Below are positions 42,273 to 51,981 of a stretch of 55,050 bases of DNA, piece by piece (the first letter of the stretch is position 1; the number at the start of each line of letters is the position of its first letter). Under the pieces are notes generated by a model, which was not told the DNA's origin, ran no database searches, and saw nothing but the letters and a program-made list of their open reading frames with translations. A program made the translations under genes and the position numbers. The stretch is from a virus, in IMG/VR virus record IMGVR_UViG_3300025137_005047, positions 1 through 55,050 of that record; one strand, given 5' to 3'.

Positions 42273-42317
42273 TTTGTACCTTATTTGGTTGACATTGTCA
42301 ACCTTTTAGTATATAAA
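42273..42317. promoter_or_regulatory. Back-to-back promoters sharing a palindromic -35 region
   Basis: GGTTGACA-T-TGTCAACC (42287-42303) is a perfect palindrome that gives a TTGACA box on each strand. On + the -10 is TATAAA at 42312-42317 (17 bp spacer), driving the tmRNA. On - the -10 is TACAAA (42273-42278, 17 bp spacer), driving the speD operon. The two promoters would compete for polymerase. Confidence 0.65.
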
Positions 42318-42327
42318 TATATATAGA

Positions 42328-42386
42328 ACGTTGAAGCAATTTGAACGTTAGACTGGACCCGGGTGCGATTCCCGGCATCTCCACCA
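42328..42386 (+). ncRNA. ssrA: tmRNA acceptor piece (permuted ssrA, 3' half of tRNA-like domain)
   Basis: Ends in the T arm GGACCCGGGTGCGATTCCCGG, then GCATCTCC and ACCA (CCA ends at 42386). The last seven bases before ACCA (CATCTCC) pair with GGGGATG at 42748, including the G3-U70-type wobble needed for alanyl-tRNA synthetase. It lies upstream of the coding piece, as in circularly permuted two-piece tmRNAs of alphaproteobacteria. The 5' end is estimated. Confidence 0.82.
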
Positions 42387-42401
42387 ATAAAAGGAAGTGT
42401 A

Positions 42402-42740
42402 ATGGAATTTATGAAGAAGAACATAGGCTGGTTTTTGCTAATAGTATTAGCAATTGGTATTTGGGCAGGTCATTCTGAGCCGTCCGACGACTATCCAGTG
42501 TTTATATTTTATCTGATGATTCCAGTAGTATTATGGAAAGTCCCTCCTTTTAGTTTTAGCGATAAAACTTTTGCTTGGGCAGGAAGACAAGACCCGTTAG
42601 GTACAAAAAAGGCTACCCGTAATTTTTTAAAGGGTAAAAAATGGTACTGGTGGGTAGGTTATACCATTCTATTATGGGGTATAGCAAGTCTTCTTATTAG
42701 TTTAATATCTGGTACACCAACGTTGGTTCTTATCGGATAA
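42402..42740 (+). CDS. Small membrane protein encoded in the tmRNA intervening segment
   Basis: A 112-residue protein from ATG 42402 (AAGGAAG four bases upstream). It has hydrophobic segments at about 8-24, 30-45 and 88-108, with a basic stretch between (KKATRNFLKGKKWYWW). The gene starts 16 nt after the CCA end of the acceptor piece and ends 7 nt before the coding piece, so it lies wholly inside the segment normally discarded in tmRNA maturation. No family recognised. Confidence 0.6.
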   Translation: MEFMKKNIGWFLLIVLAIGIWAGHSEPSDDYPVFIFYLMIPVVLWKVPPFSFSDKTFAWAGRQDPLGTKKATRNFLKGKKWYWWVGYTILLWGIASLLISLISGTPTLVLIG

Positions 42741-42747
42741 ACAGAAT

Positions 42748-43095
42748 GGGGATGAACAGGATCGACAGGTAACAACTAGGATCGGTGGAGTTCTCGGTAG
42801 GCGATGACCGTAAATCAAGCAAACTTTTAAATGCAAACACTATGTTCGCAAATGAGGATTTAGCCCTAGCGGCTTAATCTATCGGGGTTGGCAACGTACC
42901 TGGCAACAGAAATCGTTGCACTGTATCAATTTAGATATGGGTGACAATATAACTACAACCGCACTGGTAGTGATACAAATTCTAATTGCACACGTTTCAG
43001 TGGACGTGACGAACAAACACAAGATACATGACAAAAGAAACAAGAAACAAGTAACAAGATCCAACGATAACAAGAAACGATTTTACTAAAAAATT
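42748..43095 (+). ncRNA. ssrA: tmRNA coding piece with tag ANTMFANEDLALAA
   Basis: Starts GGGGATGAACAGGATCGACAGG, the canonical tmRNA 5' end. The resume codon GCA at 42833 begins the tag reading frame, GCA AAC ACT ATG TTC and onward, ending GCC CTA GCG GCT TAA at 42877, which encodes ANTMFANEDLALAA. The LAA end is the usual ClpX/ClpA signal. The remainder down to the terminator would form pseudoknots and pair with the acceptor piece; exact 3' processing is not visible. Confidence 0.85.
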
Positions 43096-43128
43096 AAAAG
43101 CCTACCTAACCCGTAGGCTTTTTTTTTG
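43096..43128 (+). terminator. Rho-independent terminator after tmRNA
   Basis: AAGCCTAC stem, CTAACCC loop, GTAGGCTT and a run of about nine T. Ends the tmRNA transcript. Confidence 0.88.
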
Positions 43129-43163: not shown

Positions 43164-44222
43164 ATGCCACCGCGTAATCATAAAAATTGGATAAAAGAAC
43201 CTAACGTAGAATATGTAAGCAGTGAAATATATTCTAGTCAAAAGATATTTGAAGAAGAAATTGAACACATTTTTAGTAAAGTATGGGTACCAGTATGCCA
43301 TATTAGCGAAATGTATAATAAGTTAGATTATCGCACATCACAAATTGCTGGATATAATATTATTGTTTATAATACAGGTAATGAAGTCAAAGCATATCGT
43401 AATTACGGTAGTTGGGCACCTACGGGAACATTACAAGCACCTATTGTAACAAGTGAAACACCTTTATACTGTGAAGTTAAACATGGAGGTATGGTATGGG
43501 TAACATTAGATCCTAACCCTACAATGGATGTAGAACAATGGACGGCAGGAGCATTCGATTGTATTGCTGAAGCAATTGATACAGAAGAACTAGAAATCTT
43601 CCATTATCATAAAGCAGTTATTCCTACTAACTATAAACTATGGCATGATACAAATAGTGAATTCTATCATGACTTTATGCATTACTTTAATAGAGTAACC
43701 GGTTTCAATGATGAGTATTTTGCTAGAAAGAATATTCCCTTTGATAACGGACACGTTAACGTAAGTAGTTTTACTGTTAACTATACTGAATTTGACAAAG
43801 AAGGTGACAGAGGAGAGTTAAGTTTTCCTAACTTACCACCGAACCAATGGTACATGGTAGATTTGTTTCCAGGCTTTAACTTTAATTTACGTGGTAGTGC
43901 TTATCGGTCAGATAGTGTTACACCTCTTGGACCAAACAAGGTTCTTATAGAGTTTAGAGGATATGGATTAAGAAAAGACACACCAGAAGAAAGACAAACT
44001 CGTATTAAACATCATAATACTATTTGGGGACCTTTTGGGCGTAACCTACATGAAGATTTATTAGGTGTAACAGGACAAGGTGCATCTATGGCACCAGGTA
44101 CTGAACGTAGAAACATACTACATGGTAGACATGAAAATAGCACAATACACGATGAAGTTGGTATGCGTCATTACTATGCTGAATGGGGAAAACATCTAGA
44201 TTTAAATCCGGCTAATCCATAA
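43164..44222 (+). CDS. Rieske-type oxygenase catalytic protein lacking the Rieske cluster motif
   Basis: A 352-residue protein with the layout of ring-hydroxylating oxygenase alpha subunits. The mononuclear iron site is present: NYKLWHDTNSEFYHDFMH with H169 and H173, and NLHEDLLGVTGQG with D298. But the usual CxH...CxxH Rieske block is missing: where NxCpHRG is expected the sequence is AYRNYGSWAPTG, and no CxxHGW follows. So it keeps the catalytic domain fold and iron ligands while having lost the [2Fe-2S] electron entry. It could be a non-Rieske oxygenase fed by another electron donor, such as the ferredoxin at 20227. Ribosome-binding site GAGGAGAA. Confidence 0.65.
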   Translation: MPPRNHKNWIKEPNVEYVSSEIYSSQKIFEEEIEHIFSKVWVPVCHISEMYNKLDYRTSQIAGYNIIVYNTGNEVKAYRNYGSWAPTGTLQAPIVTSETPLYCEVKHGGMVWVTLDPNPTMDVEQWTAGAFDCIAEAIDTEELEIFHYHKAVIPTNYKLWHDTNSEFYHDFMHYFNRVTGFNDEYFARKNIPFDNGHVNVSSFTVNYTEFDKEGDRGELSFPNLPPNQWYMVDLFPGFNFNLRGSAYRSDSVTPLGPNKVLIEFRGYGLRKDTPEERQTRIKHHNTIWGPFGRNLHEDLLGVTGQGASMAPGTERRNILHGRHENSTIHDEVGMRHYYAEWGKHLDLNPANP

Positions 44223-44253: not shown

Positions 44254-45003
44254 ATGATATTATGTAGTGGTTGTAGTTATACAATTGGATCACACAAAAA
44301 TGAACTCGGGGTAGATGTTGATTATAAACACTGGCCCGATTTTATACCAAATTCTAAAAATGTAGCAATAGGTGGAGCAGGTAATAGATTAATTGCCCGT
44401 ACTATTCTAGAGAATATAAGCCACGAGTGTAACGCAGTAATTGTTATGTGGAGTACTGTTGAACGTTATGACTGGTATATGCCTGAATATAATGCATACA
44501 AATCAGAAGGTGCAAGTTACACAGGACCTAAAGAGAATTACTTAAAATATTTTTATACAGATTTTAATCAACTTGCAAAAACACTAGAATATATTCTACT
44601 AGTACAACAAACTTGTAGAGTTAGAAATATTCCACTTATAATGACACATATGGGAGATATGCGTTATGGAGATTGGGATATGGATAAAGCATATGGAATT
44701 GGTAGAGCTGAAGATGGCAAAGGTGCAAATAGGGTTAAGTACGACTCGTCAATTGATAGAGAACCGATATTGTCATTTGAACAAAAATTACAAACTGACA
44801 AAGAACGTAAATTTATTAAAACATTAATGGAACAAGTTGACTGGAGTAAATGGATATTTCATAAAGACTATGGCGGATTTTGGCAGTTTACAAATGACGG
44901 AGGTTACGACTGGATTGCATACCATCCGCCAGAACAAGCACATAAAGATTGGGTTGAACAATATATTATCCCAAGACTAAAACAACTAAATATTAGCATA
45001 TAA
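44254..45003 (+). CDS. SGNH-hydrolase-like protein
   Basis: A 249-residue protein opening with GCSYTIGS (Ser8 as nucleophile block I), the GGAGN block (III-like Gly/Asn), and a C-terminal HPPEQAHKDW segment in the place of the catalytic DxxH. Typical of GDSL/SGNH esterases found in phage genomes. Substrate unknown, possibly a glycan ester. Confidence 0.65.
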   Translation: MILCSGCSYTIGSHKNELGVDVDYKHWPDFIPNSKNVAIGGAGNRLIARTILENISHECNAVIVMWSTVERYDWYMPEYNAYKSEGASYTGPKENYLKYFYTDFNQLAKTLEYILLVQQTCRVRNIPLIMTHMGDMRYGDWDMDKAYGIGRAEDGKGANRVKYDSSIDREPILSFEQKLQTDKERKFIKTLMEQVDWSKWIFHKDYGGFWQFTNDGGYDWIAYHPPEQAHKDWVEQYIIPRLKQLNISI

Positions 45004-50897: not shown

Positions 50898-51350
50898 ATG
50901 GATCGTAATTTACTTTATAAATGGGTTGCAATATTTACTTGTACAACCTTTAGTTTCTTCGTTATACATATGTTTAACTTATGGAACGCACTTTGGCTTT
51001 CAGACCAAACAAAAATCAGTTTTATTATTATAGCCGTGTGGGCGATATCATCAATTTTTGTACTATACAAAATTTATAAACCAAAATCAGTAAACGAAGA
51101 GTTACTTTGGTTTACTTCTGAAAGTTTAGTCACACTAGGACTAATTGGAACAGTGAGTGGGTTCTTATTAATGCTTTACTCAGCATTTGCAGACATAGAT
51201 GTTTCAAATATAGATTCATTAACGGCTTCGCTAGATCAAATGGCGACAGGAATGAGTACGGCCCTTACCACAACCTTAGTTGGACTTATCAGTAGTTTAC
51301 ATTTAAAAGTACAATTAATGTTAGTGGAGTCGCATAATGCAAAAGAATAA
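50898..51350 (+). CDS. MotA/TolQ/ExbB-like proton-channel subunit
   Basis: A 150-residue membrane protein with four hydrophobic segments at about 9-30, 38-58, 73-97 and 114-140. The family signature LGLIGTVSGFLLML (TM3) and GMSTALTTTLVGLISSLHLKVQ (TM4, Thr-rich pore wall with ALxTTxxGL) are those of MotA/TolQ/ExbB. It is short because the cytoplasmic loops are reduced. It overlaps the next gene by 14 nt and is thus coupled to it. Probably uses the proton gradient; the target is unknown. Confidence 0.7.
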   Translation: MDRNLLYKWVAIFTCTTFSFFVIHMFNLWNALWLSDQTKISFIIIAVWAISSIFVLYKIYKPKSVNEELLWFTSESLVTLGLIGTVSGFLLMLYSAFADIDVSNIDSLTASLDQMATGMSTALTTTLVGLISSLHLKVQLMLVESHNAKE

Positions 51351-51981
51351 GCATCGTAGATACTTAACCACATTTGGATTTATAGACTTACTGTTTAATA
51401 TGCTAGTAGGATTTGTATTCCTATTCTTTATTGCATACATTTTAATTAATCCAATAGCAGATGATGGAAAAGTTGATCCACCTGATCAGGCTTTAATAGT
51501 AATTAACTGGTCCAATGAGAGTGACTTTGATGTAGATGTCTGGGTTAGAGATCCAAATGGAAAAATATTAAGTTTTACAAATAAAACTATTAAAGGTATG
51601 CATTTGGAAAAAGATGATTTAGGTAAAACTGGTGATGCTCCCGGTTATGTAAAGAATCAAGAAGTTGTACACATCACACAATTCTTTCCAGGGTCTTATG
51701 AAGTCAGTGTTCATTTATATAGTATGCACGATCAAGTAGAGCCAGATGATATAACAGTTGAATTTATGACTATTAAGAATTTTAGAAAATACGGAAGTAG
51801 AACTGTTACACTAAAATTTAAAGGACAAGAAGAGCCTATAGTTCGTATTAAAGCAGGCGAAAAAAATAAAGTATTAGATGTTGACTGGGACTTTAATGGT
51901 GCAGTTGTTGAATGGAATAAAGTTAACTCAGTACAATTAGGAGAAGGTAATATAGTTAATGGAAATGAGGCTAGTAGATAA
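51337..51981 (+). CDS. ExbD/TolR/MotB-like subunit with periplasmic beta domain
   Basis: A 214-residue protein with one N-terminal transmembrane helix (FGFIDLLFNMLVGFVFLFFIAYIL, about 13-36) bearing Asp17, the position of the proton-carrying Asp in ExbD/TolR/MotB. The rest (about 50-214) is exported and beta-rich: DFDVDVWVRDPNGKILSF resembles the YfaP/DUF2135 beta-sandwich. It would form a 5:2-type channel with the preceding gene. TAATG overlap with the third gene. Confidence 0.65.
   Translation: MQKNKHRRYLTTFGFIDLLFNMLVGFVFLFFIAYILINPIADDGKVDPPDQALIVINWSNESDFDVDVWVRDPNGKILSFTNKTIKGMHLEKDDLGKTGDAPGYVKNQEVVHITQFFPGSYEVSVHLYSMHDQVEPDDITVEFMTIKNFRKYGSRTVTLKFKGQEEPIVRIKAGEKNKVLDVDWDFNGAVVEWNKVNSVQLGEGNIVNGNEASR

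Follow-up and report, generated by a model that had tools for sequence, protein, structure and literature searches.

A protein gene in the intervening segment of a permuted two-piece tmRNA gene from a probable T4-like marine phage

The virus record that we analyzed (the window, 55,050 bases) carries T4-like replication genes (RecA/UvsX-like, UvsW-like helicase, and ribonucleotide reductase) and a tmRNA gene in two pieces with a protein gene between them. Very probably, the phage is T4-like and marine, its circularly permuted tmRNA is functional, and the intervening segment has become a gene slot that is cut out by processing. Comparison of sequences establishes both tmRNA pieces, their pairing by covariation, purifying selection on the gene, and recurrence of the layout with unrelated genes. 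The best reading is that permuted tmRNA genes of phages offer a tolerated gene slot, which would give a bifunctional pre-tmRNA/mRNA.

The Rfam model of permuted tmRNA (RF04321) matched the window over the whole model at positions 42325 to 42877 on the plus strand, with 102.3 bits (E = 7e-19; cut-off, 47). The alphaproteobacterial model (alpha_tmRNA, RF01849) also matched, with 71.3 bits, and its match ended at 42922. In the covariance-model match, the 3' piece comes first and the 5' piece second, which is the permuted two-piece order. The acceptor (3') piece spans 42325 to 42386 on the plus strand and holds the T-arm (42359 to 42375), the acceptor 3' strand (42376 to 42382), and the CCA end (42384 to 42386). 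The coding (5') piece begins with GGGG at 42748 on the same strand and is drawn to 42922, which is the limit of the RF01849 match rather than a mapped end; at most, it would reach the terminator. All seven acceptor pairs form between CATCTCC of the first piece and GGGGATG (42748 to 42754, plus strand) of the second, including G3-U70. The tag frame ANTMFANEDLALAA runs from 42833 to 42874 on the plus strand, ends in a degradation signal, and is followed by a stop codon to 42877. The initial annotation, made from the letters alone, had proposed the two pieces, their pairing with the G-U of tRNA-Ala, and the intact tag. The covariance model scored both pieces, and the pairing and the tag were borne out as well. 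There was no group I intron in the T-loop; the T-arm is uninterrupted, and no intron family rose above threshold in the Rfam scan. ARAGORN detected the tmRNA gene too, but it took the C terminus of the ORF (GTPTLVLIG) as the tag. With the tag misread from inside the ORF, the layout would stay hidden in routine annotation.

Between the CCA and GGGG ends lies an intervening segment of 361 nt (42387 to 42747, plus strand), whose excision is expected by tRNA end processing. It is mostly taken up by a gene of 112 amino acids (ATG at 42402 to TAA at 42740, plus strand). The Shine-Dalgarno sequence AGGAAG (42392 to 42397, plus strand) sits four bases before the ATG and is kept in the three closest relatives (L002 to L004); the stop lies 7 nt before the 5' piece. 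Hydrophobic peaks near residues 3 to 26, 32 to 52, and 83 to 112 suggest that the product is probably a three-span membrane protein. Thus, the membrane-protein gene with its own Shine-Dalgarno sequence that had been annotated here was confirmed as to ORF and AGGAAG, and hydropathy points to the membrane spans. The protein had no Pfam or PHROG match of note and no endonuclease domain, and the fold that AlphaFold2 predicted from five sequences was not a confident one (pLDDT of 53).

The IMG/VR scan returned five distinct copies of this protein, one of which (L001) is the window's own sequence. L002, L003, and L004, which are 70 to 76% identical to it, are each flanked by the two halves of a permuted tmRNA; their intervals measure 366 to 368 nt, and their tags are intact. 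The position is common to all four tmRNA-resident copies, and three of them have a similar upstream region. The remaining homologue (L005, 67% identical) is on a 92-kb contig in a FecR/curlin/CHASE2-cyclase cluster without a convincing tmRNA match, so the gene can live elsewhere. The expectation that related phages would carry the same ORF in the tmRNA interval was therefore upheld by three of the four viral-contig homologues. No homologue was found among INPHARED phages or GTDB species genomes. Among the tmRNA-resident copies, dN/dS was 0.11 to 0.18 (0.11 to 0.19 for the window family), and third codon positions changed about two to three times as often as the others, so the interval gene is under purifying selection. 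None of 400 dinucleotide shuffles of the window interval gave an ORF covering as much. The genes beside L005 (L455, 5331 to 12499) were CsgF/CsgG-like, curlin-like, FecR-like, and CHASE2-cyclase-like; these names come from reading the sequences.

In an alignment of 15 distinct ORF-bearing loci, 100% of the acceptor and T-arm cells were paired, and covariation was 0.360, compared with 0.084 in shuffles. Related sequences can exceed shuffles, so the weight rests on a control with slid partners and on the number of different pair types. When each 3' partner was slid, covariation fell from 0.360 to at most 0.066 in alignment A3 and from 0.273 to at most 0.052 in alignment A4. In the window's family, L003 has GGGGGTG/CACCTCC, and the other members have GGGGATG/CATCTCC; this is an A-U to G-C change with both partners altered. 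Across 20 loci of a second interval-gene family (DWHW, described below), two acceptor pairs change on both sides, and no acceptor cell is broken. This covariation demonstrates that the two tmRNA pieces pair across unrelated ORFs. Folding in silico across the window interval was uncertain, with a predicted acceptor-stem probability of 0.71 that dropped to 0.006 when a longer sequence context was folded; in the three relatives, the values were 0.96, 0.16, and 0.01.

We then asked of viral contigs how common such intervals are. We scanned IMG/VR with sequence patterns and resolved the hits through their acceptor and T-arm pairing, which yielded 97 nonredundant permuted tmRNAs. The interval was longer than 130 nt in 21 of the 97, a rate that is biased because one scan selected for a Shine-Dalgarno sequence plus ATG; among the loci collected mostly with just the 5' pattern, the share was 13 of 69. 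Most other intervals were 5 to 122 nt. About 20 of the 21 long intervals were filled by an ORF, L101 being the doubtful exception. These ORFs start near the CCA, usually behind AGGA or GGAG, and stop either no more than about 20 nt short of the 5' piece or within that piece. The end is 12 to 55 nt inside the 5' piece in L172, L256, L133, L170, L179, L233, L120, L150, and L114, and in the L120, L150, and L114 loci the frame runs in by 33 to 55 nt. RF04321 scores lay between 72 and 121 bits for the window, for its three relatives, and for another fourteen loci that bear an ORF. The tags were intact in all ORF loci with complete sequence (those of L090 and L113 were read by eye, and L179 runs off its contig). 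A second lineage, of the GGTTTCGAC type, added 61 nonredundant cases, and all four of its intervals longer than 125 nt held an ORF. One tmRNA (L093, with near-duplicates L132 and L177) has an unusually long tag of 29 residues, ANDNVSNVFSFVDFGSLKNYVNEDYALAA, read in L093, beside an interval ORF of 55 residues.

The idea that all interval ORFs form one family was ruled out by domain matches. The ORFs of L113 and L120 are DUF6356 proteins (5e-12 and 3e-7), and those of L170 and L114 are HNH/homing endonucleases (phrog_655, 2e-11, and phrog_3322, 2e-19), the only two interval genes with an endonuclease domain. The L133 ORF is homologous to a pelagiphage HTVC010P protein and, from its context and hydropathy, may be holin-like. 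The other interval ORFs and the DWHW protein had no INPHARED match, so no cultured case was found. On this evidence, the interval ORFs are mostly unrelated to one another. A segment that a split stable RNA gene normally discards can thus be a coding slot, repeatedly and for unrelated genes, and the slot encodes small phage proteins that annotation can miss (the HTVC010P homologue, DUF6356, DWHW, and the window's membrane protein). The initial annotation knew of no described case of this layout. We likewise found no description of a protein gene in a permuted tmRNA interval in the openly accessible literature that we searched, but the layout is not isolated, since it recurs with many unrelated phage ORFs.

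The DWHW family, of 43 residues, was searched with three members and was found at 63 loci. Both tmRNA pieces flank the gene at 51 of the 63 (22 of these nonredundant), five more loci show one piece with the other cut off or altered, and seven lie outside tmRNA, some with tmRNA-like remnants adjoining the gene. Its pN/pS was 0.17. In L486 (about 1460 to 1660), the gene, with tmRNA-like ends, lies between two copies of ATGATGGAAACCTA, a 14-bp direct repeat, and this arrangement is possibly a mobile unit. In L503 (1 to 700), an apparently decayed tmRNA 3' piece and DWHW stand directly before an intact tmRNA with a different interval ORF.

Such loci bear on a reading that we hold to be possible, although somewhat doubtful: that mobile or homing elements land in the interval, and that the small genes there either derive from such elements by decay or domestication or are recombination passengers. 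The two HNH homing endonucleases fit it, and they add a new position within an RNA gene to the sites known for homing endonucleases. So do the late promoter elements (TATAAATA) in the L114 endonuclease interval, which has its own copy, and at the start of the L170 interval, the tmRNA-like scars beside DWHW genes outside tmRNA (L481, L486, and L496), the direct repeats of L486, and the DWHW genes beside intact tmRNAs (L503 and L519). However, the window's family has no mobility genes, and its tmRNA-resident copies share one position and, in three of the four, a similar upstream region.

The ends of the intervals also pair with each other. Matched ends pair far better than ends swapped between loci (-10.7 versus -5.8 kcal/mol; 0 of 5,000 permutations), and in most loci they form a helix that stacks on the acceptor stem. 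AGGA or GGAG lies in or beside this helix in many loci, and the last codons of DWHW (ATTCGTGTGTTTATG) double as its 3' strand. With the ribosome-binding site so placed, the pairing suggests that translation and maturation race each other, and these tmRNAs may be a natural system where RNA end processing and translation compete on one transcript. A full regulatory switch seems rather unlikely to us. The Shine-Dalgarno sequence would be accessible on the nascent transcript, the helix would bury it once the 3' strand of the helix is made, RNase P would then cut, and translation and maturation would be mutually exclusive; genes with a stop inside the 5' piece, as several ORFs have, would become nonstop messages tagged by the tmRNA itself. 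However, the helix is also present in short, ORF-less intervals and is stronger there, which suggests that it serves processing first. It is absent from the window's family, where the stop precedes the cut. For the window, we therefore propose plain cotranscription and excision. We consider it improbable that the marine-phage pre-tmRNA in general is a bifunctional tmRNA-mRNA in which maturation and translation regulate each other. In that reading, the helix would bury the ribosome-binding site, cleavage would put an end to expression, and read-in genes would be converted to substrates of the tmRNA with which they share a transcript.

A neutral spacer or a frame open by chance is a highly unlikely account of the ORF; the shorter frames of L101, L245, and L172 are only weakly above shuffles, but the low dN/dS, the third-position excess, the shuffles of the window interval, and the conserved homologue outside tmRNA all speak against chance in the window family. 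A decayed tmRNA remnant with a gene at the break, or an assembly artefact, has nothing specific in its favor except that the records are metagenomic contigs, and it is largely refuted: the tags are intact, compensatory changes span the gene, and independent contigs at 70 to 76% identity repeat the layout.

The signals around the window unit fit the preferred reading, a slot cut out by processing. The T4-type late promoter element TATAAATA (42312 to 42319, plus strand) starts 75 nt before the CCA end, as it does in all four tmRNA-resident members of the family. A -35-like hexamer, TTGACA (42289 to 42294, plus strand), lies in the palindrome GGTTGACATTGTCAACC, 17 nt before the -10/late element, and the arrangement is the same in the relatives. 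The consensus promoter scan, which requires the -10 hexamer to have T as its sixth base, does not call it. The window holds six copies of TATAAATA on the plus strand and none on the minus strand, with no second copy inside the interval. Among phage tmRNAs, the element accompanies 12 of 19 with long intervals, at roughly the distance seen in the window family, and 40 of 74 with short ones. An intrinsic terminator, a 10-bp stem followed by a T run (43096 to 43122, plus strand), closes the unit. It is plausible from this arrangement that one promoter serves both tmRNA pieces and the interval gene, as the initial annotation had proposed.

We infer that the window unit is transcribed as a single RNA, processed, and translated. 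One late transcript, from about 42325 to 43122, would carry the acceptor piece, the membrane-protein gene, and the coding piece, and the acceptor stem would hold the two tmRNA pieces together with the gene looped out between them. RNase P would cut before 42748 and 3' maturation would take place after 42386, so that the gene is excised and a two-piece tmRNA is left. The template for translation of the protein would be the precursor as it is being made, the segment after excision, or both; processing may thus also free or destroy the mRNA, as the initial annotation conjectured. The slot may be kept because a small phage protein is expressed in step with tmRNA.

The window's tmRNA has the piece order, CCA, G3-U70, T-arm, and tag of the usual permuted two-piece tmRNA (RF04321 and RF01849). 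The usual intervals are short, however, mostly 5 to 122 nt in the phages surveyed, whereas that of the window is mostly protein gene. RF04321 unites what had been separate alpha, beta, and cyano models, and a two-piece tmRNA is made from the permuted transcript by tRNA processing enzymes (PMC11915505). Extra interval sequence has been reported as single cases of a tRNA-Ala gene or a repetitive element, which are a structural RNA or a repeat and not a protein gene (PMC11915505). Group I introns of tmRNA likewise place a protein gene inside a tmRNA gene, to be removed on maturation, and 36 of 883 intron forms have a homing endonuclease gene; endonucleases are mentioned there only in such introns (PMC11915505). 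Those genes sit in a self-splicing intron in the T-loop, whereas the window gene sits in the acceptor-end interval and would be released by tRNA end processing, and most phage interval genes are not endonucleases. Circularly permuted tRNA genes have intervals of 1 to 74 bp and halves joined via a circular intermediate, with no mention of an interval gene (PMC3978253). Permuted tmRNA of the alphaproteobacterial type was already known in the marine phages Melnitz and Mosig, and 53 two-piece phage tmRNAs were called by ARAGORN; the accessible part of that source does not mention an interval gene (PMC9004378). The annotated tmRNA of Mosig is only 339 nt.

RF04321 matched 270 of 289 alphaproteobacterial genomes, with full-length spans of 184 to 351 nt among the matches listed. 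In three genomes picked among the weak matches, the long intervals held repeats and no convincing ORF, so in this sample interval ORFs seem peculiar to phages. These permuted tmRNAs (L446, L447, and L445) have repeat-filled intervals of several hundred nucleotides. A pattern scan of genome contigs for a Shine-Dalgarno sequence plus ATG behind CACCTCCACCA returned only one-piece tmRNA-like ends and unrelated sites.

Several other genes of the window deserve a note. A TctA permease of the tripartite tricarboxylate transporter (29 to 1432; Pfam, 5e-83) lies on this T4-like phage contig. A MotA/TolQ/ExbB-like gene (50898 to 51981; Pfam, 9e-8) is followed by a frame that reads as TolR-like. Directly after the tmRNA terminator is a gene resembling the alpha subunit of ring-hydroxylating oxygenases (43164 to 44222; Pfam, 1.5e-6). 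What follows in L003 is a different gene, similar to the one at 44254 to 45003 of the window.
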